Shown here in pieces: positions 1 to 15,939 of a stretch of 15,939 nt of DNA (position 1 is the first letter of the stretch; every line of letters starts with the position of its first letter). The position numbers and the translations under genes are program-made. A model generated the notes under the pieces. It was given only the letters and a program-made list of their open reading frames with translations, had not been told where the DNA came from and did no database searches. Origin of the DNA: Bacteroides sp. (GTDB lineage Bacteria; Bacteroidota; Bacteroidia; Bacteroidales; Bacteroidaceae); assembly GCA_021204375.1 (NCBI GenBank), contig JAJPZL010000018.1, forward strand, positions 1 through 15,939. Direction: 5' to 3'.

Positions 1-1
1 G

Positions 2-1048
2 GCACTGGTCAACCTTATGTCTCCCATGGCACTACCGAAAATATATCCCGATTTTACCCCCCCCCCGTAAACTCTCCATTCTGATACCGGCCCGGAACGA
101 AGAGAAAAATATCGGTAACCTGCTTCACGACCTCGGCTCACTCTACTATCCACATATAGAGATCATAGTATACGATGATGAATCCACAGACCGTACGGTA
201 GAGATCGCTTCCTCCTACCTCCCGTCACTTCCGGAACTGCGCATTATACGAGGGACACCTCCCCCTCCCGGATGGCTTGGCAAGAATTACGCCTGTTACC
301 AACTGGCAAAAGAGGCCCGGGGAGGAAAGTTACTTTTTTTAGATGCCGATGTACGGGTAGACAAACATTTCCTGGAACGGGTACTGGCCTGTTCCGGGCA
401 GTACCAGACAGCCTTACTCTCTATCTTTCCCCAGCAACTCATGCCCGACTAGGGCAGCCGCCTCGTAGTACCCGTTATGAACTGGATATTGCTGAGCCTC
501 TTACCCCTTATCTTAGTAAGAATATCGCCCCTGGCATCACTGACGGCAGTCAATGGCCAATTTATGCTTTTTGAAGCAAGAGCTTACCTGGAGACAGAAC
601 CTCACCGGACCTGCCGGGATAAAGCAGTAGAGGACATGGCCATTATGAAACTTTTTAAAAAGAAGAATCTGCGAGTAGCCACTCTTCTGGGTACCGGAAA
701 CATATATTGCCACATGTACCGGGGATTGCAGGAAGGAATCAACGGTTTTACCAAAAACATCGTAGAAATACTGGGAGGTATTCCACTTCTGGCTCTGCTC
801 TTTGTTATAGCTATTACCGTAGCTCCGGTATGGATATGGTTTTACCTCTCTCCTGCCTTGTCGCTCATTTATATGGGGTTAATGGTGCTGGTACATATAT
901 CTATATCAATAAAAAGCCGGCAGCCAACAGGGCTGAACCTGTTATTGCTCCTGCCGCAACTACTTATAATATGGATCATTCTACTCAAAGCTTTAGCCGG
1001 GCGGAAAAAACGAAAATTATATGGAAAGAAAGAAATATCTACTCCTGA
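2..1048 (+). pseudogene. Family 2 membrane glycosyltransferase, 5' partial, broken
   Basis: This is a GT-A fold, CrtQ/CruC-like family 2 glycosyltransferase that would move a sugar from a nucleotide donor to a membrane acceptor; the acceptor is unknown. Visible are the nucleotide-binding start SILIPARNEE (from about 75), YDDESTDRT, the DxD metal site FLDADV, an acidic EDMAI motif, and three C-terminal membrane segments from about 750 to 1000. The N-terminus lies outside the window; residues ALVNLMSPMALPKIYPDF lead in from base 2. Three lesions: a C10 run at 57-66 puts the entry one base out of frame (C9 would restore it); TAG at 450-452 follows MPD, probably ancestral Trp; an A6 run at 1005-1010 lacks one base, since the expected ending KIIWKERNIYS lies in the next frame and stops at 1048. 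The gene overlaps the start of the TPR gene by 28 bases, suggesting one operon. Family assignment is firm; substrate is not known. Confidence 0.82.
57..66 (+). repeat. Poly-C tract, C10, inside the glycosyltransferase gene
   Basis: Ten consecutive C residues near the 5' end of the glycosyltransferase. The reading frame before it (ending YPDFT) and after it (RKLSILIP) are joined only if the run is nine bases long. It is the longest homopolymer I see in the window. Long C runs slip easily, both in replication and in sequencing. Confidence 0.9.
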
Positions 1049-1761
1049 TCTTACTGCTGTCCGTTTTGGAGATCAGTGCCGTATATGCCCGTACCTCCTA
1101 CCGGGAGCAGATCTACCAGGCTTACATCACCGGTGATATGGAGCATTGGAAACAGGTGCTGGACGAAATGGAGATACTCACCTTCAGCTCTGCCGACCAG
1201 CAACTGGAACTTATTCATTACTATTACGGTTATATTGCTTTCCTGCTAAACCAAGAGCGCACCAAAGAGGCAAAAACCTATATTGAAAAAGGAGAAAAGC
1301 TGATCAGAGAGGTATTAAAAGAACAACCGGAGAGTGGAGAGGCACATGCCTTTAAAGGATCGTATGGTAGCTTTAAAATCGCCATTAACAAAATAAAGGC
1401 CGTTACACTGGGACCGGAAAGTATGAAGCAGATCAACAAAGCTTACAAGCTGGACCCAACCAATGTACAGGTAGTAGCCGATAAAGCAAACCTACTTTAC
1501 TACACTCCGGGCATTATCGGAGGAAACAAAAAAGAGGCGATAAACCTCTATAAACGCGCCATCTCCCTGATGAAAGAGAAAAACGAGACAGAAAAGAACT
1601 GGTTTTACCTCAATCTGCTGACACTGCTGGGACAACACGCAGAGGCTGATAATGATCTTACCGGGGCAGCAGAGTATTACCGGAAAGCGCTGAGTAAAGA
1701 GCCCGGTTTTAAGTGGGTAAAAGAGGATCTTCATCCGGATCTGCTCAGAAAACTACACTAA
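1021..1761 (+). CDS. Secreted tetratricopeptide-repeat protein
   Basis: An intact 246-residue protein with a Sec-type signal peptide: MERKK, a Leu/Ile-rich core and a likely cut after AVYA near residue 23. The rest is helical and TPR-like. Recognisable repeat pieces are AKTYIEKGEKLIREVL (about 80-97), a central MKQINKAYKLDPTNVQVV unit (about 138-155), EAINLYKRAISLMKE, and a C-terminal AAEYYRKALSKEPGF unit. TPR proteins act as binding scaffolds, so it probably works in the periplasm or at the outer membrane; no enzymatic motif is visible. Its ATG lies inside the last 28 bases of the glycosyltransferase, pointing to translational coupling. It is one of only three intact genes here although its operon partner is dead. 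The partner protein is unknown. Confidence 0.82.
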   Translation: MERKKYLLLILLLSVLEISAVYARTSYREQIYQAYITGDMEHWKQVLDEMEILTFSSADQQLELIHYYYGYIAFLLNQERTKEAKTYIEKGEKLIREVLKEQPESGEAHAFKGSYGSFKIAINKIKAVTLGPESMKQINKAYKLDPTNVQVVADKANLLYYTPGIIGGNKKEAINLYKRAISLMKEKNETEKNWFYLNLLTLLGQHAEADNDLTGAAEYYRKALSKEPGFKWVKEDLHPDLLRKLH

Positions 1762-1950
1762 CATTTCTATCCCGATGGTTACCGGACCACCCTCTCCCCA
1801 CATTATACCGATCAGATATACCCAAAAAACAACGCACAAACCCTTAAAAGTATCTCATCTTCCTATAATCCCAGCCTAAGTTTTTATAACTTTGCCACCA
1901 GTTTAAAACAGGAGAAAATAACTTTAACCACAAACAGACAAATATAAGCC
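1762..1950 (+). other. Intergenic region upstream of rpiB
   Basis: A 189-base AT-rich gap without a credible coding frame. Apart from the -7-like promoter motif at 1887-1894, I see no clear terminator hairpin for the TPR gene and no repeat. Confidence 0.5.
1887..1894 (+). promoter_or_regulatory. Bacteroidota -7 promoter element (TAACTTTG)
   Basis: TAACTTTG matches the Bacteroidota sigma-ABfr -7 consensus TAnnTTTG. It would place a transcript start near 1900 and leave a leader of about 50 bases before rpiB. I do not see a convincing TTG/TTTG -33 element at the usual distance, so this rests on one box. Confidence 0.4.
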
Positions 1951-2385
1951 ATGATTGGATTAGCATCAGACCATGCAGGGTATGAGTTAAAAGAAAAACT
2001 CAAAACACTTCTGCAACAAAGAGGACTATTATTTGAAGATTACGGAACCCACAGTGCAGCAAGCTGCGATTACCCCGATTATGCCCACAAACTTGTAAAA
2101 GCCATTGAAGAGGGCGTTTGTCAGCGGGGAGTAGCCGTTTGCGGAAGTGGTACCGGCATCAATATTACCCTGAACAAACACAGTAAAATACGGGCTGCCC
2201 TTTCGTGGATACCAGAGATCGCAGCCCTTTCCAGAAGCCACAACGATGCCAACGTACTGGTACTACCCGGCCGTTTTATCCAGGTAGAGCTGGCAGAAAA
2301 GATCCTGGGTGCTTTCCTGGCCACTCCTTTTGAAGGCGGCAGACACCAGCAGCGAGTAGATAAAATTCCCACCACACAACTCTAA
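1951..2385 (+). CDS. rpiB: Ribose-5-phosphate isomerase B
   Basis: Intact, 144 residues, the usual length of RpiB. It interconverts ribose 5-phosphate and ribulose 5-phosphate in the cytoplasmic pentose phosphate pathway. The catalytic set is complete: Asp7-His8 in SDHAG, the base Cys64 and Thr68 in VCGSGTGIN, His97 in SRSHNDANV, and Arg131/Arg135 in RHQQRVDKI. These match the E. coli RpiB residues with a constant offset of two. The ATG start gives the family N-terminus MIGLASDHAG directly. It ends 15 bases before ribB and probably shares its transcript; ribulose 5-phosphate made here is the substrate of RibB, so the pairing makes metabolic sense. There is no sign of decay. Confidence 0.96.
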   Translation: MIGLASDHAGYELKEKLKTLLQQRGLLFEDYGTHSAASCDYPDYAHKLVKAIEEGVCQRGVAVCGSGTGINITLNKHSKIRAALSWIPEIAALSRSHNDANVLVLPGRFIQVELAEKILGAFLATPFEGGRHQQRVDKIPTTQL

Positions 2386-2400
2386 ATCCCCAAAGAACGA

Positions 2401-3012
2401 ATGAATAGTATAGAAGAGGCCATTGAGGAGATAAAAAAGGGGAAATTAGTTATTGTAACAGATGATGAAGCACGTGAGAACGAAGGAGATCTTGTGGTCG
2501 CCGCAGAACTCATTACTCCTGAAACAGTAAACTTTATGCTGACGCAAGGACGGGGCATCTTGTGTGTATCGCTTACAGAAGAGCGATGCGAAGAGTTATG
2601 CCTGCCGATGATGGAACCGGATAACATCTCTCTCTGTGGTACCCTCTTTACCGTATCGGTAGATCTGCTGGGACCGGGAATGAGTACCGGAGTAGCTGCA
2701 AAAGAGCGTACCGCTACTATCTGCGCACTGGTAGATAACCGGTTCAACGCTGCTGACTTTGGCCGTCCCGGACATATTTTTCCCCTGAAAGCCCGGAAAG
2801 AGGGCGTACTCATACGTCCCGGCCATACAGAGGCAGCGGCAGATCTTGCCCGGCTGGCTGGTTTAAAGCCGGCAGGAGCCATTATCGAAGTGATGAATGA
2901 AGACGGAACCATGGCACGGTTGCCTCAACTTAAAGAGTTAGCTGCCTGGTTTGATTTAAAATTAGTCTCCATTGCAGATTTAATCGATTACCGGAGAAGC
3001 AGATCCTGCTGA
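2401..3012 (+). CDS. ribB: 3,4-dihydroxy-2-butanone-4-phosphate synthase
   Basis: Intact, 203 residues. It converts ribulose 5-phosphate to 3,4-dihydroxy-2-butanone 4-phosphate plus formate, supplying the xylene ring of riboflavin. Family motifs are all present: the metal/substrate acidic loop [11 protein letters not shown] (21-31), [37 protein letters not shown] with the metal-ligand His142, and Glu163 in [10 protein letters not shown]. Many Bacteroidota carry a RibBA fusion of about 400 residues; this protein stops right after the RibB domain (IDYRRSRSC), close to where E. coli RibB ends. It is therefore a stand-alone RibB or a fusion that lost its GTP cyclohydrolase II half. The next 108 bases show no RibA similarity. 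It sits just after rpiB, whose product it consumes. Confidence 0.93.
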
Positions 3013-3042
3013 AAAGGCACAATTTCCGTAAGAACTGTTTTT

Positions 3043-3087
3043 TGCTCCTGAAAGGGGAAATTTCACTCAGTCCGGAGCAGGGAGCAG
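3043..3087 (+). repeat. Inverted repeat plus 2x7 tandem repeat between ribB and the response regulator
   Basis: TGCTCC at 3043-3048 can pair with GGAGCA at 3074-3079. GGAGCAG is itself doubled in tandem at 3074-3080 and 3081-3087, giving two alternative pairing partners. A T5 stretch follows about ten bases later. It could be a weak attenuator or terminator, but the stem is short. Confidence 0.25.
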
Positions 3088-3121
3088 TATCCTTTTTCTC
3101 AGATAAACAGGTATACATTAT

Positions 3122-3806
3122 ATGAATATACTCATTGTAGAAGACAACAGCCGCATCAGCGAATTTGTAGTAAAAGGACTGGAAGAAAATGAGTTCTCTG
3201 TAGTACTGGCAGAGAACGGAACAGATGCGCGCTGGCTCATCGGAGAGAGAGTGGGATCTGATACTCCTTGATATTATGTTACCGGATATAGACGGGATAG
3301 AGCTGTTACAATTCACCCGGTATAAAAAGATCAATACTCCGGTATTGGTCATCAGCGCCCTGAGTGATGCAGAAGATAAGATCAAAGCACTGGATTACGG
3401 AGCAGACGCATACCTGACCAAACCCTTCCTTTTCAGGGAATTACTCGCTTACGTAAATGTACTTACAAGACGGGCTAAGATCTCCTCCTATACAGAACCC
3501 TCAGAAATTCTCCGTTGCGATGACCTGACCCTCGATGTAGGGAAACACCTTGTAAAAAGAGGAGAACAGGAAATAAGCCTGACCATACAGGAGTTCAAAT
3601 TACTCAGGATCTTACTGGAGAACACAGACAAAGTGATGTCGCACGCACAACTACTCAGTGATATCTGGGGAGTGAACTACGACCCGAATACAAATATTAT
3701 AGATGTCTATATTTCCTACCTGCGTAATAAGATAGATATGGAAGAACACCACAAGCTGATAAAAACAATTAAAGGACGTGGGTATATGATACAAACCCCA
3801 GAATAA
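3122..3806 (+). pseudogene. OmpR/CusR-family response regulator, frameshifted
   Basis: A phosphoreceiver plus winged-helix DNA-binding regulator, 228 residues once repaired. The N-terminus MNILIVEDNSRISEF starts at 3122 with the acidic pair in VEDN; the phosphoacceptor is Asp51 of the repaired protein in LILLDIMLPDIDG; the conserved Lys is in YLTKPF; the output domain runs from about residue 125 to the terminal GRGYMIQTPE. The first 43 residues and the rest are in different frames. The switch falls in the GAGAGAGAG stretch at 3243-3251, where one GA unit is missing: with it restored, GEREWDLILLD reads straight through. This cuts the protein before the phosphorylation site, so no working regulator is expected. 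It is followed by, and was probably coupled to, the sensor kinase. Regulation of the nearby metal efflux operon is a context guess. Confidence 0.85.
3243..3251 (+). repeat. GA dinucleotide tract with a missing unit
   Basis: GAGAGAGAG in the receiver domain of the response regulator. Loss of one two-base unit explains the frame switch exactly, as expected from slippage in a dinucleotide repeat. Confidence 0.7.
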
Positions 3807-5168
3807 CCAGGCGCCCAACAATAAAAGTAAAAACCCGCTTAAGCCTCTATTGCTCCCTGATCTTCGGGATCATTTTTGCCCTGGTCTCTATCTCTGTATA
3901 CCATCTATATTCCCATACGGTACAGCGGTCCATTTATAATAACCTCCGGAAAATAGCCTGGATAGCAGCCTGGTTCTACCTCGAAGAGGATGAACTTACC
4001 GAAAAAGAGTTTGAAAAAGTAAGACAACAGTTTGAAGAGGTAGATCCGGGAGTAGTCTACCAGTTATACAATGTACACAATACTATTGTCTTCGGAGAAC
4101 CTTCTCACCCTGTTCCCGGATATTTTGTAGAGAAGATCCGCTCTGTGAAACAGATGACCTTTAAGACAGAAAATGATTTTTGTTACGGTATGTTCTATAC
4201 AGATAACCAGGGAGACTTCGTGATCATTGCCAAAGAAGACCGGTCCGCCCTGGGAAACCAGGTACAACTCCTGTTATGAATCCTTATTCCGGCTTTTTTA
4301 TCGGTATGCTCGCTATTGTCCTGTTAAACCGTTTGGTAGCCCGCCTGGCCTATCTTCCTTTCAGCGAAGTAACCCGGCAGGTAAACAGTATCTCCACGCA
4401 CGACCTCAATGTTCATATACAGTCGCCCGGCACCAAAGACGAATTACACGAGCTGGTAGATACCTTTAATCATCTGCTCAGCAAATATCAGACACATGGA
4501 TCATTCAGAAAAACTTTGTAAAGTATGTTTCGCACGAGTTTAAAACACCCTTAGCCTCTATGCTGGGAAATATAGACCTCTTTTCCACACGGGACCGCAC
4601 TCCGCAGGAGTACCGTGTCCTGGCAGAGAAACTCACCGGGCAGATCGCACAGATGGAAAAGATACTGGAGACCCTCATTATCATCTCCGACCTTAAAGAA
4701 GAAAGAGAAGCAGTTAACTCTTCCCGCATTGACGAAGTGATCTGGGAGATCATCAGCAAGATGAAAGATATTTATCCGCAATCGAAAGTAAGGGTAAATA
4801 TGAACATATCACCACGGGACGAAGCATTGCTCTCTGTCAGGAAAGACCCCACCCAACTCTGGATTGCCCTCTTTAACCTGATAGATAACGCCATTAAATA
4901 TTCCCGGGGAGAGAGTGTCATCCTGGATCTTTATAAGAATGAAAAAGGGATCTGCCTGGATATTACCGATAAAGGGATCGGGATCCCGGCAGATCAATTA
5001 GAGAAGATCAGTAAACCTTTCCACCGGGCAGACAATGCCGGCGAAGTACGGGGAAGCGGGATCGGTTTATCACTGGCACTGCGCATCTTCCACAAAAACG
5101 GGATTGACTACTTCCTACATTCGGAGATCAACGTAGAAACACGGATCACCCTCTGTTTTCCCGGTTAA
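3803..5168 (+). pseudogene. Two-component sensor histidine kinase, multiply broken
   Basis: An inner-membrane sensor kinase, 455 residues when repaired, partner of the preceding regulator. In order: a first membrane helix (SLIFGIIFALVSISVYHL), a periplasmic region of about 120 residues, a second helix (FFIGMLAIVLLNRL), HAMP, the HisKA box YVSHEFKTPLASML with its His codon at 4533-4535, the N box NLIDNAIKYS, and G boxes DKGIGIPADQL and GSGIGLSLAL. Four lesions: no ATG, but ATA at 3803-3805 sits where an ATGA overlap with the regulator's stop would be; TGA at 4277-4279 in the second helix, probably Trp; a T6 run at 4294-4299 lacking one base; AAA at 4483-4485 lacking one base. The stop and T-run lesions are 15 bases apart, and a single different indel is possible but gives a less hydrophobic helix. 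Not functional as read. Confidence 0.82.
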
Positions 5169-5236
5169 GAACAGGCTCTCCTTTCAGGTTACAGTCACTC
5201 TTTCCTCTCCGGCTTTCAGGAAAGAAAATTAAACAT

Positions 5237-5263
5237 TCTCAGGGAAACAAATGTTACCTGAGA
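5237..5263 (+). promoter_or_regulatory. Hairpin immediately before the outer membrane protein start codon
   Basis: TCTCAGG at 5237-5243 is the exact reverse complement of CCTGAGA at 5257-5263, with a 13-base loop, ending one base before the ATG at 5265. As RNA it could hide the start; as DNA it could be a dimeric operator. The octamer CTTTCAGG also occurs twice in the same 96-base gap, near 5182 and 5212. Confidence 0.35.
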
Positions 5264-5264
5264 G

Positions 5265-6444
5265 ATGAAAACCCAAACTAACTTTGCCGCACTGCTTGTA
5301 CTCCTTTTACTCTTCTGCACCCTTCCTGTATATACCCAGGAACGTGTAGAATTACCTCTTCTCTCCCCGTCCGATGCGGTCGATCCACCCACATCCGGAA
5401 AAAAGCAGGATACTTCCGAAAGCTCTTTACGGGAAGCGAAGACCGGACTTTCGAAAAAAGGTTCGATATGAGCTTTGCACTCGCCCCCTCCTACAGCCGG
5501 GAAGCCAGTTTCGGGATTGAAGGCATATTAACCTGACTCTACCGGCTCGACCGCACAGATTCCATCATGCCTCCCTCAGACATCACCCTCACAGCCAATG
5601 TATCCATCTGGGGCGTTTACAGCATCCGGGCGGCAGGAAACAACTACTTCAAAGGCAACCGTTCCCGGCTTAATTACGAACTCTTTTTCTTTAACGAACC
5701 TCTTTTCCTCTGGGGGATCCGCTACCAGACTACCTCCGTAAATCCCTCTACCCACTATACCCGCCAGGATGTCCGGGTTAATACCCAGTATATATACTGG
5801 ATGACAGGGAATTTCTATATAGGGGGTATATTCGACTTTACTTATAAACACATCCGGAAAATAGATGATATCTCCTACTTAGATGGACAATTCCTCTCCT
5901 ACCTCAACACCGGATTGGGATTTTCCGTGCAGTACGATACCCGCGACTTTATTCCCAATCCCGGCCAGGGGATGTACCTGCTGTTCCAGGAGGTAGTCTA
6001 CCCACAGGCAACCGGTAACTATCATCGTACTCTTTTCCGTACCACACTGATTGCCGATCTTTACCGCAAAGTATGGACAGGCGGATTGATAGCCCTCGAC
6101 CTTTATTGACGCTTCAACCCCAAAGATGCCCCTGGACCCTCCGGGAAGAGTTGGGTGGCAGCCGGCGAATGAGGGGCTACTATTCAGGAAGATACATGGA
6201 TAGTAATATCGTAAGCGGACAGGTAGAACTCCGGCAACACATCTGGAAACGGCTCGGTTGTGTATTTTTTGCAGGAGGAGGCATAGTAGCCCCCTCCCTC
6301 CGGGAGTTCCGGATCTCCAACCTGTTACCCTCGTATGGTACCGGGATCCGCTAGGAATTTAAGAACAACCTGAACCTGCGGGTCGATTTCGGCATAGGTA
6401 AACACACCAGCGGATTTGCCGTAAATATCGGCGAAGCTTTTTAG
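5265..6444 (+). pseudogene. BamA/D15-family outer membrane protein, multiply broken
   Basis: An outer-membrane beta-barrel of the surface antigen (D15/OMA87) family, 393 residues when repaired, too short for the POTRA domains of true BamA. It begins with a signal peptide (MKTQTNFAALLVLLLLFCTL, cut near VYTQ) and ends in the barrel signature GKHTSGFAVNIGEAF with C-terminal Phe. Barrel motifs include DTRDFIPNPGQG, LGGSRRMRGYYSGRYMD and VELRQHIWKRLG. Five lesions, the densest in the window: one base missing near TTT 5449-5451; TGA 5534-5536 (before LYRLDRTD, family residue often Gly); TGA 6107-6109 after LDLY; one C missing in CCCC 6129-6132; TAG 6352-6354 replacing a Trp before EFKNNLN. It is convergent with the efflux pump gene, 16 bases apart. 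Its cargo or role is unknown; members of this short group are often annotated only as outer membrane proteins. Confidence 0.82.
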
Positions 6445-6460
6445 AAACCTGCTTATTTTC

Positions 6461-9400
6461 TTAAATGCTTCTCCCTGCGGTAAGTAAAATAAACACCTGG
6501 GGAAGCACAGTAAAAGAAAGAAGCATACAGGTAACGATACCACCTACGATCATAATAGCAAGAGGTTTCTGTACCTCCGACCCCATACCGTTGGAAAGAG
6601 CGGTAGGCAGGAGGCCCATAGAACCCATCAGCACGATCATCAGTACGGGGCGAACACGCTGGTGAATCGCTTCATCGATCCCTATACGCAGGTTACGGGT
6701 CTGCTGCATCTTCCTTTTCATCAGGCTGGTAAGCAGGATACTGTCAATTGAGACAATACCGAAAAGGATGATAAAACCGATGCCGGCAGAGATACCAAAG
6801 ACCGTACCGGTGGCCCAGAGAGAGAGGAAACCTCCGATAAAGGCATACGGCATGGCACTGGCGGCGATCAGGGTATCTTTTACGGTACGGAAATTCATAT
6901 AGAGCAGGAAGAGGATAAGCAGCAGGGCAGCGGGGACGATCACCATCAGGCGGGCAGTAGCCCGTTGCTGGCTCTCGAACTCTCCCGCCAATACCATCTT
7001 ATTCCCGTCGGGCAGGTCTACCTGCTCTGATACTTTTTCCCGGGCCTCAGCAATGGCAGAACCCAGGTCACGATCGCGGATACTGAATCCGACACCGATA
7101 TAGCGGCTGCTTCCTTCTCGATAGATAAAAGCAGGCCCGGTAATAAAGGTGATATCGGCAATCTCTTTCAGGGGTACCTGTTTACCATCCATAGTAGGAA
7201 TAAGGATATTACCTATTTTATCTTCGTTATCCCGGAACTCTTGCTGGAAACGTACCATAATATCGAAGGTACGCTCCTCTTCGTAAAAGGTACTGGCGGC
7301 TTTTCCGCCGATAGCCATCTCTACCACAGCCTGGGCATCGGCCATGGAGACGGAGTAACCGGCCATGCGGGACTCTTCCAGACGGATCTGGAGTTCGGGC
7401 AACCCGATACTACGGAAAACATTCACATCTTCGATCCCCTCTATATCCCGAATGGCACCGGCAGTACGGTCGGCCAGCTCTTCCAGCTGGTGCAGGTCAT
7501 GCCTAAATATCTTAATGACTAAAGCACTCTTCACACCGGCTACATACTCTTCCACATTGTCCTGGATAGGCTAGCTGAAAGCAAAGATAATCCCGGGATA
7601 GACGCTCAGGGTATCCTGCATCTGTTTGATAAGTTCCTCTTTGGATATCTTTCGTTCCCACTGCTTTTCGGGCTTGAGCTCCGTATGAAATTCGATGTTA
7701 AAGAAACCGGTAGCATCTGTCCCGTCGTTGGGGCGTCCGGTCTGGGTAAGGACAAATTCCACTTCATCGAACCGACGGAGCTTCTCTTTCATCTCTTTGG
7801 TGATGCGGACAGACTCCTCCAGGTTAACACTGTTAGGAAGGGTGGCCCGTACATAGATGGCCTCTTCGTTCATATTGGGAATAAATTCAGTACCCCAGAA
7901 ACTAAACCGTATCCCGCAAAGGATAAGAAGAGCTATAAAAGCAAAGATGGTGGCTTTACGGTGCCGGCAACTCAACTGATAAAAGCGGTAGAGATTGGTG
8001 GTAAAAAAACGGCTGATGGCATTACTCTTTTCTTTGACGGGTTTATTAAGCAACACTTTACACATCACAGGCACATAGGTAAGCGAAAGGATGAGTGAAC
8101 CTAACAGCGCATGCCCCAGGGTAAAGGCTAAGGGAGAGAATATTTTTCCCTCTACCTTCTGAAAAGAGAAGATCGGGAAAAGAGCCACTACCAGAATGAT
8201 CTGTGCAAAGAAAATGTGAGAAGCTACGCTACCGGCACTTTTACGGATCATCCCCCCTTTAAGAGTACCCTGGAATCGCTCTCCCAGGGCCTGGGATCGT
8301 TGTTCCATAGCGACAAAGACAATCTCGACAATGACTAAGGTGCCTTCCAGAAGTAATCCGAAATCCAGGGCTCCCATAGAGATCAGGTTGGCCGGAAGCC
8401 CCTGTATGCGAAGCATAATAATAGCAAAGAGGAACGATAACGAGATCACAGTCGCTACAATCAAAGTAGTACACCAGCTAAAGAGGAAATAAATACGATC
8501 AGGAAGACAAGAAGTATACCCTCGACCATATTTTTAAGCACGGTACTTACTGTCGCATCCACCAATTTGGTCCGGTCCATAAAGGGCACGATCCGTACTC
8601 CCGGGGGTAGGATACGGGTATTCAGTTCATCGATCTTCTCTTTGAGATGGGCAATCACCTCACCGGGATTCTGCCCGCGAAGCATGATCACAATTCCCTG
8701 GATAACATCATCCTGGTCATTGAGTCCTACCTGTCCGAGACGGGGTTTGGAAGAGACACTCACAGTGGCTACCTGCCTGACACGGATCGGGTTCTCTCAC
8801 TTTACTTCAATCAGAATATTTTCAATGTCTTCAATTGTTTCGAGCAGGCCGATCCCACGTACTACGTAAGCCTGTTTTCCTTTCTGGATAATATCTCCTC
8901 CTACGTTGATGTTGCTGCCGGCTACGGCTTCATAGACCTGGAGGGGAGAAAGATCGTAGTTATTGAGTTCTGCGTGATTCACCTTGATCTCGAACATCTT
9001 CTCTTCTCCTCCGAAGCTGGCAATGGTAGCTACGCCGGGAACCGAAAGAAGTTCACGTTCGATCACCCACTTCTGAATGGCAGAGACTTCGCGGATAGGA
9101 AGATCGCTCTCAATGATATAACGGAAGATCTCACCGGTCGCTCCCGAAGGGGGTTCAATGGAGAGATCGACTCCCTCCGGCAGGTCGATGTCCTGTATCC
9201 GGTTAGAGGCATACTGTTGAGCAAAGAAATCGTCTACCCCATCTTCAAAAAGAACAGTTACTACCGAAAGCCCGAAAAGGGAGGTAGAACGTACATCAGT
9301 TTTGCGGGGAATGGTATTAAGTTGCTGCATCACAGGCAAAGTGACAAACTTCTCTACATCTTCGGCACTTCGTCCCGGCCACTGTGCAATGATCTGGACC

Positions 9401-9546
9401 CGGGTATTAGTTACATCAAGATAGGCTTCAATGGGAGTACTTTTGTAACAGATCACGCCCACTACCAACAGAATGGTAGTAAAGAAAAGAACCAGTATAT
9501 GGTTACGCAGGGCAAAGGCTATAATGTTTTCGACAAATTTATGTAT
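6461..9546 (-). pseudogene. CusA/CzcA-type heavy-metal efflux RND pump, broken
   Basis: The inner-membrane, proton-driven pump of a tripartite metal exporter, 1028 residues when repaired, normal for the HME-RND family. Seen in order from 9546: TM1 (NHILVLFFTTILLVVGVI), periplasmic porter motifs (AQWPGRSAEDVEKFVTLP, GVATIASFGGEEKMFEIKV), the TM4 region DFGLLLEGTLVIVE carrying the proton-relay acids, the second periplasmic half (NSVNLEESVRITKEMKEKL), and terminal helices ending LLTAGRSI. Four lesions on the coding strand: ATA at 9546-9544 in place of the start, three bases after the adaptor's stop; TGA at 8799-8797 (ancestral Trp or Arg); one base missing where plus-strand GG lies at 8485-8486, separating VFLIVFIS from WCTTLIVATVIS; TAG at 7573-7571 between AFS and PIQDNVEEY, clearly an ancestral Gln. 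Substrate (Cu/Ag versus Co/Zn/Cd) cannot be told from what I can see. Confidence 0.88.
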
Positions 9547-9549
9547 TCC

Positions 9550-10639
9550 TTATTTTCCTTTTAGTTCTGAATAAATAAGCAGAGGATTGGTGGCCACTAC
9601 GTCTTCACATGCGGAGAGTCCGGAGGCAAGAAAAGCAGCACTACCGCTATGACCGGCAGGCACTACCTGGCGAATGGTAAATTGATCATCTACCTCCCGG
9701 ACCACTACATAGTAGGCATCATTATCGAAAATAATCACATCGGAAGGTACGGTAACTTTGTGGTCGGTATATTTCTCTTTCAGGGTGATCGCCACAGACA
9801 TTTCGGGTTTCAGCCTGAGCCCGGGATTCTCCATAACAATACGGGCTTTCAGGGCTTTATCCTCAGGATCAAAGACCTGTGACAGGGTGGTAATGGTACC
9901 AGGGAACTCTTCGCCGGGATAAGAGAGGGTGGTAATGATGGCTTCCATCCCCTCACGTACAAAAGAGAGATTACTGGCATATACATTGGCAATGATCCAT
10001 ACGGTGCTCAGATCAGCTATGGCAAAGGCAGGCTCTCCTTCCGCCGATACGGTACTTCCGGTAGCGACGGATTTATCAATAATATATCCGTTGATCGGGC
10101 TGCTTACAGTAAAGAGTCCGTTCCCGCGGCTGGAACCAAAGACAGAGATATCGGCTTTGAGTTTATTAGTAAGGGCTTCAGCCTGTTTAAGCCTTGCTTC
10201 GGCTTCCAGTAATTCCCGCTGGGAGAGTATTCCGTCGGCATGCATAGAACGTGCCCTCTCTGCTTCCCGGTGAACTACGGCAGCATCTGCCTCGGCTCCT
10301 ATAAGATCAGCTTCGAGGGCACTCAGGTCGGTACTGCGTATATCCATTAGTTTCTCCCCTTTTTTAACCCGTTCTCCCAACGAGAACCAGGTACGCTCTA
10401 TCACTCCACTGACCAGTGGCACATAGTGGATGGTTTTATCGGGATCACTGATCACTTTTCCAGTAAGTGTCATATCAGTTTCCTCCCTGGAAAGGATAGC
10501 CTTTACGGTTTGTACCCGGGTAAGGAAACCGGAATGAATGGTACCTGCTGTGCTGTTCTCCTCTTTGTTGCTGCCTGAACAGGCGGTAAGGAGAGAGGCA
10601 TACCAAAGAAAAAAGAATAGGGTAATTTTTTGGGATCAT
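9550..10639 (-). pseudogene. CusB-type RND periplasmic adaptor lipoprotein, frameshifted in signal peptide
   Basis: The membrane-fusion protein linking pump and outer-membrane channel, 362 residues when repaired. A lipobox LTAC follows a hydrophobic stretch (LFFFLWYASL), predicting a lipoprotein. Further on are the biotinyl-lipoyl-like half motif VSGVIERTWFSLGERVKKGEKL, a coiled-coil hairpin (ALEADLIGAEADAAVVHREA), the second half SSPINGYIIDKSVATGSTV, and beta-barrel and proximal domains to EDVVATNPLLIYSELKGK. The natural ATG at 10639-10637, six bases after the channel gene's stop, is out of frame with the mature protein; removing one base from the A6 run (plus-strand T6 at 10626-10631) joins them. 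Everything after the signal peptide is open, so this is the least damaged broken gene; a single homopolymer error in the assembly would make it intact. A rare in-frame ATT start is a weak alternative. Confidence 0.85.
10626..10631 (-). repeat. A6 run disrupting the adaptor signal peptide
   Basis: Six A residues on the coding strand; five would give the continuous signal peptide MIPKITLFFFLWYASLLTAC. It parallels the A6 run at 11291-11296 in the next gene upstream, which is also one base too long. Confidence 0.6.
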
Positions 10640-10645
10640 CTTCTT

Positions 10646-11932
10646 TTATTTTATATCTGTTCCTATTGTATATTGTAATTCCTGCAATCCTCCGGAAAGT
10701 TTTTTCCGGGCGCTGAGCAGAATCTCTTTATTGCTTTTGTATGTCTCTGTAAAGTCGATATACTCCAGCATACTGATGTTTCTTTCTAATAGATTGCGGG
10801 TATAGATGTTCAGCATTTCATCCAGCTGGTCAAACAGAGAAGTGCCGGCAATACGGTGGTAAAAGTCATAGGCAAGGGTATAATCACTCAGGGCCCGGGC
10901 TGCTTCGTTCCGGACGATCTTTTCATACCTGTCGTTTTCAAAACGACTCTGCTCGATCTGGATCCGGGATGCTTTGACAGCACCCTGGTTACGATTGAAT
11001 ACGGGCAGATCTACACTTACTCCAAAACCAATAAAGTCTTTCCAGACACCTCCGTAGCGATCGTATCCGGCACTCATGGTAATATCAGGGATACGTTGTG
11101 TACGTTCAAAGGCAAGAGATCTTTCCATGTAACTGATCTGCAATCCTGCCATCCTGAGATCCGCTCTGTGGCTGAGAGCCAGGTCGATGAGTTCTGAAAG
11201 GATAAGTGTTTCAGGAGCTCTGTACTCTTTATCCTCTTCTGTAATAGTAATGACAACATCGGGAAAGAAATTCAGCAATATACGCATCTCTTTTTTGCAA
11301 AGCATTCCACGAGGTCTCCACTTCTATCCATTCATTTTCAGCCTCAAACAGAGCATATTGCAGACGTAACAATTCACTCTTTGCCAGATTTCCCTGCTCT
11401 ACCTGCCGGGTATAGGCCTGGGTAAGATGCGTCAGAGAACGGATCTGTCCGGAAACCACCTCACGGTAATCCTGTATATAGAGCATTTCATCGATGGTAT
11501 GATGGAGTTCTGCTTTAAGTCCACGCAGGGTCTCTTCAAACTCAGCTAAAGCGATCTCCCGGGAGACCTTTTCCATACGTACCAGCTTTCCTCTCTTATT
11601 GGCGGTTTGTATCAGCTGGCTGAGTTCTACACTAAACTCTGTGTTTTTGCCAAAGGAGCCGAAAAGAGGAGGAATAGCAGCTTCCCGGCGTCCCGAACGG
11701 GTACTCCACAGGTTTACTTCACTCAGGGAAAGTTCCGGATTTTCCAACAACCGTGCCTGTACTATAGCGGCATCTGCTATGGCTACATTCATCTCCCCGG
11801 CAATTAACTCCAGGTTGTGTTACAGAAAATAGTATTCAATCTCTGCCCGGGTCAACAAAAGAGTGGTACCTTCACGGGCAAAGGTCCGGTTAAATAGAGA
11901 CAGAAAATAAGGAACAGGTAATATCGCTTCAT
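10646..11932 (-). pseudogene. CusC/TolC-type outer membrane efflux channel, multiply broken
   Basis: The outer-membrane exit duct of the metal efflux operon, 428 residues when repaired, and its first gene. The start at 11932 opens a signal peptide MKRYYLFLIFCLYLTG; an ATG at 11941 is in the same frame and could be used instead. Mature motifs are typical of outer membrane efflux proteins: LTRAEIEYYFL, NVAIADAAIVQARLLENPEL, a periplasmic coiled coil through KAELHHTIDEMLYIQDYREV, then the second half RADLRMAGLQISYMERSLA and ending GTDIK. Three lesions: one base missing near plus-strand CC 11886-11887, between LTG and TFAREG; TAA at 11822-11820 after YYFL, an ancestral Gln; an A6 run (plus T6 at 11291-11296) with one base too many, splitting NALQK from EMRILLNFFPD. 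Channel, adaptor and pump genes are 6 and 3 bases apart, so they were a single transcript. Confidence 0.86.
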
Positions 11933-11966
11933 ATAGGTCATGGGTATATACTGATTGGTTCGATTG

Positions 11967-11974
11967 CAAAGATA
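11967..11974 (-). promoter_or_regulatory. -7 promoter element (TATCTTTG) for the efflux operon
   Basis: On the minus strand TATCTTTG matches TAnnTTTG. It would start transcription near 11960, leaving 20 to 30 bases before the channel gene's ATG at 11941 or 11932. No good -33 box is visible at 19-21 bases upstream, which would fit an activator-dependent promoter. Confidence 0.45.
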
Positions 11975-12025
11975 TTTCTCCTGCACAGAACTATCCAGTA
12001 AACAGGGTTAGACCTTCATTAAAGG

Positions 12026-12043
12026 TAGATTAGAAATAGATTA
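12026..12043. promoter_or_regulatory. Candidate response-regulator site: TAGATTA direct repeat, 11-bp pitch
   Basis: TAGATTA occurs at 12026-12032 and 12037-12043, four bases apart, so the copies start 11 bases, about one helical turn, from each other. OmpR-family regulators bind such tandem half-sites. It lies in the divergent 190-base gap, roughly 65-85 bases upstream of the inferred efflux transcript start and about 90 bases from the beta-glucosidase ATG. The regulator would plausibly be the one at 3122, but this is inference. Confidence 0.35.
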
Positions 12044-12131
12044 AAAAGTTAAAGAACGGGATATTCAGGAAAGGAACCGGTAGGCATCAGAATAGCTCGA
12101 ACAAGAAAAAAGAGAGGTTGTTATACCTGTA

Positions 12132-14410
12132 ATGGAAAAGACGATCAACATACAGACAACTACAGTCCCTCAGCTCGGAAAGGCTTCTGTTGAGGAACTT
12201 ATAAAAGCGATGACTCTGGAAGAGAAGGTATCCTTGCTGGTGGGCACCGGCATGGAGGGCTTTGGGGGAGATACCGCTGTAGTGGGAGAAACAGACCTCA
12301 TTGTTCCGGGAGCAGCCGGGACTACCTCTCCTGTTCCCCGGCTGGGTATCCCGGCTATTGTACTGGCAGACGGTCTTGTAGGGGTAAGGATTTCTCCTAT
12401 CCGTAAAAATAGCCCCGGAACCTTCTACTGTACTGCTTTTCCGGTAGGAACACTCATAGCCTCTACCTGAAACCAGGCATTGGTAAGAGAAGTCGGTGAG
12501 GCGATAGGTGAAGAGGCACTCGAATATGGAATAGATATACTACTGGCCCCCGCCCTGAATATACAACGCAACCCGCTATGCGGGCGTAACTTTGAGTACT
12601 ACTCAGAAGATCCTTTGCTATCCGGTAAGATAGCAACTGCTATGGTGAAGGGGATCCAGGCAAAAGGGGTAGGAACCTCCGTGAAACATTTTGTGGCCAA
12701 TAACCAGGAGACCAACCGCATGGGGAACGACTCACAGGTATCTGCAAGGGCACTCCGGGAGATCTACCTGAAAGGGTTTGAAATAGTAGTGAAAGAGGGG
12801 GCTCCCTGGACAGTGATGTCCTCTTACAACTACCTCAACGGAACTTATACTTCAGAAAGCCGCTCCCTGCTTACCAGTATCCTGCGCAAAGAGTGGAAAT
12901 TCCGGGGAACAGTAATGACAGACTGGTTCGGGGGAAAAATACCCCGACACAGGTACATGCAGGAAATGACCTGCTTATGCCGGGCAGCCGGGAACAGGCG
13001 GATACTATTATAGAAGCTGTAAAAAGAGGAAAGCTGACTATAAAAGACATAAACAAAAATATAGAGCGTATTCTGTACCTCATCCTGGAGACACCCCGTT
13101 TCAAAGGGTATAAATACTCGGATAAACCGGATTTAGAAGGATATGCACGAACAGCCCGCAAAACAGCCGGCGAAGGGATGGTCCTGCTGAAGAATGAGAA
13201 CGAAACTCTTCCTTTTAAGAAAAAGATAAAAAAGATCGCTGCTTTTGGAATCACCTCTTACGATTCTATTACAGGAGGGACAGGTAGTGGGGATGTGAAT
13301 AAAGCTTATACGGTATCCGTGACAGAGGGATTAAAGAATGCAGGTTATACAATAGACAGAGAGTTGCAGGAGTTGTATGAAGATTACGGAAAGACAGAAA
13401 AAGCAAAACTATCCGAAAGTAAAGATCTGTTCATGCAGTTCCTCCCACAACAGCGCATACCGGAATGGATCCCGGAGTTTGACCTCATACACCAGAAAGC
13501 AAAAGAGACGGATATAGCCCTGATCACTATCGGACGTAATTCGGGTGAATTCATAGACCGGCGGCTGGAGGGAGATTTCCTGCTTACCCCGGAAGAGAAA
13601 AAGATGATCCAGGCAGTAACAGAAGTTTTCCGGAAAGAGGGAAAGAGAACGGTGGTGATCCTTAACGTAGGCGGAGTGATTGAAACAGCTTCCTGGAAAG
13701 AGCTACCGGATGCGATCCTGCTGGCCTAGCAGGAGGGACAGGAAGGAGGCAATACAGTAGCAGATATCCTGAGCGGAGCGGTTAACCCATCGGGAAAACT
13801 CACTATGACTTTTCCGGTCCACTATATGGATGTACCTTCGGCCCGGAACTTTCCATACGATTACGACGCAGATCCGGAGTCTGTTATCCAGAATCTGACC
13901 CATGCGAATTCCCAAAAAGGGAACGAACGAAATGTAGACTATGCCCTGTACGAAGAGAATATTTTTGTGGGTTACCGCTACTGCGAGATCAACCAAAAGA
14001 AAGTTTCTTATCCGTTCGGGTATGGATTATCTTATACAAAGTTCTGCTACCTTGATAAAGAGCTCACCGAAGAAGATAGCATGTACAAAGTATGCGTGAC
14101 TGTACGGAACGATGGAAGAAGAAGTGATAAAGAGGTGGTACAGGTATATGTGGCAGCTCAGCATACGGAGGGGATACCTAAACCCGCAAAAGAGCTGAAA
14201 GCTTTTACCAAGACCCGGGAGCTACATCCGGGAGAATCAGAAACCCTACACCTGGATATCCCGGTACACTGCATGGCCTCTTTTCACGAGAAAGAGAATG
14301 CATGGGTAGTAGATGCAGGAAAATACAAAGTACTGGTGGGAAGTTCTTCGACCGATATCCGGAAAGAGTTATCGTTCCGGGTCGGGCATGATCTGTTGCA
14401 GAAAAAATAG
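12132..14410 (+). pseudogene. Glycoside hydrolase family 3 beta-glucosidase, broken
   Basis: A retaining exo-beta-glycosidase, 759 residues when repaired, full GH3 length. Domain 1 (TIM barrel) shows [53 protein letters not shown] and the nucleophile Asp264 in [10 protein letters not shown]. Domain 2 begins near EGMVLLKNENETLPF. The C-terminal fibronectin III-like domain includes YPFGYGLSYTKF and VRNDGRRSDKEVVQVYV. No signal peptide is visible at MEKTINIQTTT, so it probably acted in the cytoplasm on imported glycosides. Three lesions: TGA at 12468-12470 replacing the conserved Trp of ASTWN; one A missing in the A5 run 12935-12939, just after the nucleophile; TAG at 13727-13729 replacing the Trp before QEGQEGG. 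Substrate preference cannot be read from sequence. It converges on a tannase, suggesting shared use of plant phenolic glycosides. Confidence 0.9.
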
Positions 14411-14447
14411 AAGCGGTATAATTCCTGTACCGCCTTTGTTCGCTTCT
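14409..14447. terminator. Bidirectional terminator-like overlapping hairpins
   Basis: GCGGTA (14413-14418) pairs with TACCGC (14428-14433), followed by T-rich CTTTGTT. AGAAGCG (14409-14415) also pairs exactly with CGCTTCT (14441-14447), enclosing the first. The two stems share bases and so compete. Placement between two convergent genes fits a shared terminator. Confidence 0.5.
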
Positions 14448-14456
14448 TGCTGATCT

Positions 14457-15881
14457 TTATTCTGCCTGCTGAACGATCTTATCGATCCAGTCAAAAAGTT
14501 CATCCAGGTCATAATCCCCTGTATGCCCTTTATCCCAGGCCAGTTCATAATTCACATCGTAACCCCGGTTGATAAGTTTGGTATAAAGATTAACCGATAC
14601 ATGAAATCCGGTGTCCCGGTCAGCAGCACCGTGGCGGATATACCAGTGGGAGGTCTTTGTAGCCTGAGGATCGTCGATAAAATTCATGGGGTTCATCATC
14701 CGGACCATCTCCCTGAGCTTATCATCGATCATGGCCGTAGCATCCTCCGTTCGCTTTTGCAGGCTGTAATCCGTAAAGTTCACTGCATTTCCTGTTTCAT
14801 CACCGAACAGACTGTTCTCCGGCGAAGGACGGGAGGTAAGTACCCCAAAGGAGTCAAAAGCCGGAGGAGCCTTTAATTTTTGTCTTCCGGCCACATACGC
14901 CAGGTAACGATCTATCTCTATATCCAACACCAGGTCTCCCCTTTCATTGAAGAGTAGAGAGGCGTTCGTCGGCATCTCCATACCCGCATCCAACCCTTTC
15001 TGTGCAGAGTCGATCAGAAATCCGGTCACATAATCCAGGTAATTTTTATCCGTAAGCAGGGTTCCATCCGGTTTTTCCAGTTCAAGACCATTCAGATAGA
15101 ACGGATACAGGGCTGCCAGTTGATCCGAGACAGCCATCTCATCGGCAGTTAAATCTCTCACTCCCCGGTTGGTACGGTTATAAAGCCACTCATAGGCCAT
15201 ATTCGCATAATCCAGATCCGTGATCGGGCAAAAACATACGGCAGCAAAAATATCATCCCGTTCCGGTGTAGCACCCAGTTCCCGGAGATAAGGCTCATAC
15301 ACCGGATGATTGCCTGTAGACCCCAGCAAAGCAGACATGGCTCCTCCAGCACTGGTACCATCCGTAATGATCCGCTCTATATTACCGGGAAGCACCTCTG
15401 CGTTGTGACGTAGGTAACGGATAGCCGCTTTCAGGTCCACCAGACCGGCAGGAGCACGCCCGGTATAGATCTCTCCGGAAGGAGTTGTTACTTTAGAGTC
15501 CGAACCCCGTGATCCGGCCACGACCACCACATATCCCTGTTGCAGGGCAAAACCGGTAGCATCTCTTACTGAAGGCTGGTTCACCTTTCCGGCTCTGTAT
15601 CCACCCACATTGGTTTTCAGAAATACAGGTCTACTCCCGTTATCCTCATAAGCTGCTTCCGGAACATAGAGATTCAGATACTAGTAAGCAGAATCTACCA
15701 CAGATGTTACATAGTAAAGACCTTTATACGCACGGTAACGAACAGAAGTTCCATCTGAAAACTCCAGGGTTCTTTCCGGTAGGTTCTCACCGGGAACAAA
15801 CCTCCAATCATTCTCACCGGCAGCAATTCCCGATAGGGCCATAACCAAACCTCCTATACCGCATACAATTTTCTTTTTCAT
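14457..15881 (-). pseudogene. Secreted alpha/beta-hydrolase, subtype-B tannase-like, one nonsense codon
   Basis: A probable tannin/gallate or feruloyl esterase, 474 residues, near the roughly 470 of the Lactiplantibacillus TanB enzyme. The signal peptide is MKKKIVCGIGGLVMALSG, cut near IAAG. The nucleophile elbow is GTSAGG with Ser177; the acid pair DRD (Asp421, Asp423) and catalytic His453 in DKGHTGDYD follow. As I recall TanB uses Ser163, Asp419, Asp421 and His451, so the DxD and 32-residue Asp-His spacing fit well. Strand motifs PVFLKTNVGGYR and VVVVAGSRGSD form the oxyanion side. The only lesion is TAG at 15683-15681, codon 67, between VDSAY and YLNLYVPE, most likely an ancestral Gln. Everything needed for catalysis is otherwise present, which suggests recent loss. 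Ferulate, gallate and other aryl esters cannot be told apart here. Confidence 0.8.
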
Positions 15882-15939
15882 AACAATTAAATTAAATGAT
15901 TATCCGCATAATGTCCTATTATAAATTCTGGATTTGAAG
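15882..15939 (-). other. Upstream leader of the tannase gene
   Basis: A 58-base AT-rich stretch containing the presumed leader of the tannase gene. I see no TAnnTTTG element, operator-like repeat or other gene in it; the promoter may lie beyond the window. Confidence 0.4.

Follow-up and report, generated by a model that had tools for sequence, protein, structure and literature searches.

Do the many interrupted genes on a single contig of a Bacteroides sp. record the early erosion of a genome, or errors in its assembly? The contig (JAJPZL010000018.1, 15,939 nucleotides, analysed whole and called the window here) is contig C453, in its entirety, of G000, a metagenome-assembled genome (MAG) of 3.30 Mb in 506 contigs that is 79% complete. 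An earlier note on this DNA had described nine of its twelve genes as disabled by small lesions, all lost recently and simultaneously, without insertion sequences (IS), and had read this as early-stage genome erosion. We compared the window with other contigs of G000, with a sister species (G118), with a single-contig control genome (G176), with a further MAG (G032) and with other members of the genus. Judged from sequence comparison, early-stage erosion in a Bacteroides-like lineage is the probable explanation, and artefact a less likely one. The reading draws on a genome-wide excess of lesions, the sparing of core genes, the sister's own lesions, low ratios of nonsynonymous to synonymous substitution rates (dN/dS) and the ends of an IS-like element; the simultaneity of the losses and the absence of IS found no support.

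Gene order in the sister is the same as in window positions 1-14409, at 89% identity. The closest relatives of G000 rpoB are 91% identical, and the first that bears a name, an uncultured Bacteroides, is at 89%; further named rpoB relatives among the matches listed are Phocaeicola or Bacteroidaceae, while the nearest named relatives of the esterase in the window are Tannerellaceae. The lineage thus appears to be Bacteroides-like.

Lesions in the window, the genome and the sister species

Domains in the window were assigned with Pfam models, the pieces of broken genes being searched apart, and frames were read against intact homologues and the sister. The inventory of the earlier note, with 11 internal stops, two lost ATG starts and 12 small indels, is confirmed in all three parts: the 11 in-frame stops could all be placed against relatives or the sister; start codons are lost in the kinase and the pump, where the sister has a start at both positions; and 12 frameshift sites are found against intact homologues or the sister, or 12-13 if a doubtful one is counted (Table 1). 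Some of the indels in the Omp85-like gene may be the sister's own, because the sister is the sole comparison for that gene. The doubtful frameshift (~10598-10606) lies at the start of the membrane-fusion protein, whose main frame is open without a matching start; from the nearest upstream ATG the reading frame extends for just 54 codons, and for 42 in the sister. This gene, in which the two species may share a break or the start may have been misread, is probably the ninth broken one. Eight of the twelve genes are clearly broken, and the TPR protein, RpiB and RibB are intact.

A frameshift-tolerant coding model was run over 33 other G000 contigs (385 kb, 12% of the genome) and over 232, 197 and 200 kb of G118, G032 and G176, respectively; five own contigs that read as N and two below 3 kb were dropped, as were 11 small sister contigs by an N filter. 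The window shows 0.88 events per kb (0.38 frameshifts and 0.50 stops), the other G000 contigs 0.41 (0.19 and 0.22) and the sister 0.34 (0.27 and 0.07), versus 0.11 in G032 (0.09 and 0.02) and 0.085 in G176 (0.07 and 0.02), the last figure being the false-positive floor seen in the control. An excess over the relatives is therefore present genome-wide. As raw counts, 14 events in the 15.9 kb of the window compare with 17 in the 200 kb of G176; one of the 14 (~9550) is false, as it joins two neighbouring genes. With a pooled model and more loci (30 for G118, also used for counting coding segments, instead of the 21 of the first scan), the rates per kb are 0.44 for G000, 0.30 for G118, 0.12 for G096, 0.11 for G032 and G117, 0.10 for G176 and 0.06 for G090. 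G119 has 0.30 in only 20 kb, and G116 has 0.25 in 40 kb that consist mostly of loci fetched for pumps or mutS. Coding segments of at least 80 amino acids (aa) with one or more events make up 8/12 in the window, 107/270 in the other G000 contigs and 76/193 in the sister, and 22/127 and 25/153 in G032 and G176. Four of the 33 other contigs (L053, L066, L167, L169) have no event. With about twice the mean rate of the contigs sampled, the window represents the worst end of a condition that affects the genome as a whole.

The core loci tested are spared. A core set, fetched by family before lesions were counted, comprises rpoB and three loci that we take, from family match and length, to encode EF-G, LepA and IF2. 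It holds no own-lineage scan event in 17,952 bases, versus 23 stops and 15 frameshifts (38 in 57,572 bases) in thirteen other loci, the window excluded; 11.8 core events were expected, and the probability of observing none is 7e-6. A release-factor-3-like gene returned by the same query (L234 / L051, G000:C150), presumably prfC, was grouped with the other loci. In G000 one stop and one frameshift split it, and the sister's frame is open; with its locus L051 included, the core set has one scan event in 21.1 kb. The ten translation-GTPase family matches in G000 are all free of stops within the matched part, prfC being split. The IF2 locus (L242) aligns with eight gaps whose lengths are not multiples of three and which compensate one another over a few bases. 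Two event-free contigs, L167 and L066, were taken regardless of content and ten frames of each annotated. On L167 lie BamA, Ddl, glutamate racemase, ProA, ProB and an RluA-family enzyme, all above cut-offs, a content to be expected of a contig of core genes.

G000, G118 and G032 have a complete rpoB with no internal stop, and a family search did not find the gene in G116. In G096 (L148, L149; G096:C93) it lies in two frames, by sequence error or as a natural split, and G096 may for this reason carry sequence errors.

Lesions have arisen mostly independently in the two species. The sister's frames for the glycosyltransferase, response regulator, outer membrane efflux protein and GH3 enzyme are open, and its TPR protein, kinase and pump are broken, mostly at sites other than those of the window. 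In 18 own/sister locus pairs (27,222 aligned codons, overlapping alignments dropped), 35 stops are own-only and 6 sister-only. Shared are one kinase frameshift (~4291-4300) and one stop position (in L109). Since most lesions are unshared and one frameshift is shared, the lesions are spread in time, and the claim of simultaneous loss is unsupported. Recent loss, on the other hand, is upheld: dN/dS between window and sister is 0.058-0.176 across 11 genes, broken and intact alike, and because it is low in both, the broken genes were evidently under selection for nearly all of the divergence and the damage is recent. Polarised by outgroups, missense changes are just slightly commoner on the own branch: seven window genes have 91 there and 71 on the sister branch. 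With more outgroups the own/sister counts are 92/73 in the window, 225/156 outside core and window, and 72/52 in the core loci; the pump has 29 own versus 12 sister changes.

Two sites are worth recording in their own right. The shared kinase frameshift, in a gene with a dN/dS of 0.07, may be a same-site recurrence or a tolerated shift. At ~2964 of L109, and in L127, both species have a stop, by different codons, at a site that relatives conserve.

Copies of the final ~45 bases of the window are found at other places in G000. With up to one mismatch allowed, an 18-base end has 44 matches in this genome; they fall into two main types, which resemble opposite ends of a single element with imperfect inverted repeats. 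All 23 reverse matches lie within the first 61 bases of their contigs, and of the 21 forward matches the six in contigs of known extent all lie within 30 bases of the end. The 18-base end is absent from G118, G032, G116, G096, G004, G090 and G176, and a search with the ends only gave no match in viral contigs or plasmids. We use the label IS-like because only the ends, and neither a transposase nor the interior, were seen. The pattern suggests that the element has recently spread, in this lineage specifically, to about twenty sites, which the breaks in the assembly conceal, and the window, described earlier as free of insertion sequences, ends inside such an element.

Mismatch repair, artefact and altered decoding

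Mutator decay, in which loss of MutS/MutL mismatch repair drives the lesions, amounts to the erosion reading with a cause named, and it therefore overlaps with erosion; we regard it as possible but doubtful. The mutS1 model matches 157 of the 158 genomes of the genus, 145 of them above the cut-off. The sister's mutS1 (L171, G118:C71, ~71-2650) has an in-frame TAA where all 14 matching relatives share another residue, and its mutL (L249, G118:C161) has an in-frame TAG. Neither gene was found by model search in the 79%-complete G000; the matching G000 contig begins 3 kb past the sister's mutS1, and because the mutS1 region is thus unassembled, this absence is indistinguishable from incompleteness. 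If independent, both genes would be missing by chance with a probability of ~4% at that completeness. The mutations themselves point both ways. Of 38 isolated coding frameshifts, 34 are 1-base, with 16 of these in runs of at least four (7% of bases), two in runs of three and, against a mutator, 16 in runs of one or two. Among the 35 own-only stops, 30 are single-step, and the 19 transitions among them (versus 11 transversions) exceed the 33% expected from the fourfold-site ratio (p 6e-4), far from dominance nonetheless. Fourfold sites, with 1639 transitions to 1251 transversions, speak against a long-standing mutator.

In a study of delta-mutS Vibrio (PMC5854121), transitions and 1-base indels in homopolymers mark the lines that lack mutS. 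G000 resembles these mismatch-repair-deficient mutators in the transition excess among stops and in the 1-base homopolymer indels, and the sister resembles them in its interrupted mutS and mutL; the fourfold-site spectrum of G000 and G118 differs from theirs. In addition, at least four other species of the genus have an interrupted mutS1 (by a frameshift in G032:C19, two frameshifts and a stop in G116:C1, and with a stop in G119:C104 and G117:C19), and mutL is uninterrupted in G032, G116, G117, G119, G096 and G176. In G032 and G117 the lesion load is at background level despite the interrupted mutS1; losing mutS is thus not enough by itself to predict decay, and a genus-wide rule that mutS loss gives load fails. 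Mismatch-repair loss as the cause of the lesions is hence only suggested, with the spectrum and these two relatives speaking against it. In the sister locus that holds mutS1 (L171, ~9026), a frame that resembles what we take to be the N-terminus of DNA polymerase I has an in-frame TAA near its start.

The chief alternative to erosion is that assembly error or DNA damage put false stops and indels into intact genes of both MAGs. We consider this unlikely. Blind artefact is disfavoured because the core loci are spared and the sister has its own, mostly different lesions: errors would have to follow gene importance (none in 18.0 kb of core sequence) and to strike the sister at mostly other sites and in other proportions (15 stops but 63 frameshifts in 232 kb), yet place one kinase frameshift in both MAGs. 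Moreover, G032, itself a MAG, scans like the single-contig G176. Pure deamination damage is ruled out by the 11 transversions among the 30 single-step stops together with the clean core loci.

Several observations nevertheless weigh against erosion. (I) The lesions are all consensus calls made on fragmented MAGs, and low-coverage assemblies are known to yield spurious stops and frameshifts (PMC11017572); G000 shares with those spurious pseudogenes the internal stops, the frameshifts and a fragmented assembly, and differs in its spared core loci and in the other lesions of its sister. (II) Six of the thirteen comparison loci are pump loci fetched by family; by our own arithmetic, the rate of unselected contigs lowers the core expectation to ~7.4 and raises P to ~6e-4. 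The sampled G000 contigs are, besides, all at least 3 kb long. (III) The event-free L066 consists largely of a cluster for vitamin B12/iron transport, together with repair-like genes, which is neutral, and the lesion-rich L162 and L065 also hold open housekeeping frames (acetate kinase, Mur ligase; only open frames were scanned). (IV) The own-branch missense excess extends to the core loci (72 vs 52, p 0.09), as uniform base errors would give. (V) The own-branch stops come without the missense excess that neutral decay predicts (91 vs 71 in the seven window genes). This last point fits very recent losses or, more speculatively, tolerated stops.

Tolerated stops lead to two related and far weaker readings. 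One is loose decoding, in which release factor 3 would be lost, UGA and UAG perhaps suppressed, stops comparable to mild missense changes and many 'pseudogenes' partly expressed; we hold this to be very improbable. If true, it would account for low dN/dS beside heavy lesions, for the constrained kinase frameshift and for an excess of glycine codons turned to TGA. The other, likewise very improbable, is that stops are read through or partly recoded, so that many 'broken' genes still work. It draws on dN/dS being equally low in broken and intact genes, on the kinase frameshift of both species coexisting with a dN/dS of 0.07, on the lack of a matching missense excess beside own-branch stops and on the break in prfC (if that gene is indeed release factor 3). 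GGA-to-TGA changes, furthermore, make up 7 of the 11 own-branch transversion stops (p 2e-5, 18 locus pairs), a p of 0.03 when set against other GGN-to-TGN changes (2 in 1,144). C-to-T stops at CAG (11/738) are about as frequent as, or rarer than, missense changes at comparable codons. Residues of relatives at stops are given for single named sites only, because the filtered table retains antisense rows. Against read-through, 40 positions are stops in both species, at least one of them an internal shared site, with the same codon in both at 24 TAA, 10 TGA and 3 TAG; the core loci have no internal stop; and frameshifts are left unaccounted for. Full stop codon reassignment is rejected, as TAA, TAG and TGA each still terminate frames in the two species and the 15 tRNAs found in G000 (an incomplete set) include no stop anticodon.

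Features of the window

The features of the window are collected in Table 1. A deletion of the RibA half from a RibBA protein is unsupported, since the sister's frame is similarly short (208 aa) and G004 has both 211-aa and 421-aa forms.

Table 1. Genes and other features of the window, with their lesions and the matches or comparisons on which they are based.
Feature	Position	Strand	Lesions and state	Basis
Family 2 glycosyltransferase, 5' end cut by contig edge	2..1019	+	stop 450 TAG	PF00535; frame open in sister G118:C169
TPR protein	1021..1761	+	intact here, frame interrupted in sister	Pfam TPR models
RpiB-family isomerase	1951..2385	+	intact	PF02502
RibB, single-domain	2401..3012	+	intact; most relatives have a ~400 aa frame here	PF00926
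Response regulator	3121..3806	+	one frameshift ~3242	PF00072, PF00486; two frames vs intact homologues; sister frame open
Sensor histidine kinase	3821..5168	+	start lost; stop 4277 TGA; frameshifts ~4291-4300 (common to sister) and ~4485	PF00672, PF02518
Omp85-like outer membrane protein	5265..6444	+	three in-frame stops, 5534 TGA, 6107 TGA, 6352 TAG; small indels vs sister, frameshifts ~5397, 5454, 5573, 5688, 6129, 6290	PF01103
RND efflux pump	6461..9546	-	start lost; stops 7573 TAG, 8799 TGA; frameshift ~8486; sister copy broken elsewhere	PF00873, pieces searched apart
Membrane-fusion protein of the pump	9553..10639	-	main frame open, start/first codons doubtful	PF16576
Outer membrane efflux protein	10646..11950	-	stop 11822 TAA; frameshift ~11291; sister frame open	PF02321 in two pieces
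GH3 glycoside hydrolase	12132..14410	+	stops 12468 TGA, 13727 TAG; frameshift ~12935	PF00933, PF01915, PF14310; sister frame of 788 aa open
BD-FAE / subtype B tannase-like esterase	14457..15881	-	stop 15683 TAG	PF20434; relative P0069 open through site
End of multicopy IS-like element, contig stops inside	15896..15939	.		18-base end, 44 copies in G000 (at most one mismatch), 0 in seven other genomes

Relation to known systems and significance

The best-known cases of early genome erosion are intracellular insect symbionts and host-restricted pathogens. As described in PMC3499248, Sodalis glossinidius and SOPE, compared with strain HS, carry many small nonsense and frameshift lesions; orthologous genes are broken by different lesions in these sister lineages, and SOPE has many IS elements. 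G000 resembles these recent symbionts in its small lesions, its sister-specific breaks and the many ends of an IS-like element, and differs in being Bacteroides-like, in having no known host and in a dN/dS that is not visibly raised. Judged by titles only, no paper among the matches listed was titled on a decaying or mutator Bacteroides lineage.

Taken together, the results are consistent with a course in which stop mutations and small, mostly single-base indels would recently have broken a sizeable share of dispensable genes, those for efflux, sensing and polysaccharide breakdown among them, with selection keeping the core genes and an IS-like element spreading to roughly twenty sites. The cause may be weak selection in a small, perhaps host-bound population, possibly together with mismatch-repair loss. 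Early-stage erosion would mean that a Bacteroides-like species pair has been caught early, with an element burst in one member and interrupted repair genes in the other, and such a pair would let the order of events be tested, whether repair loss came first or weak selection. It would also mean that gene absence read from MAGs of this kind may be recent decay.

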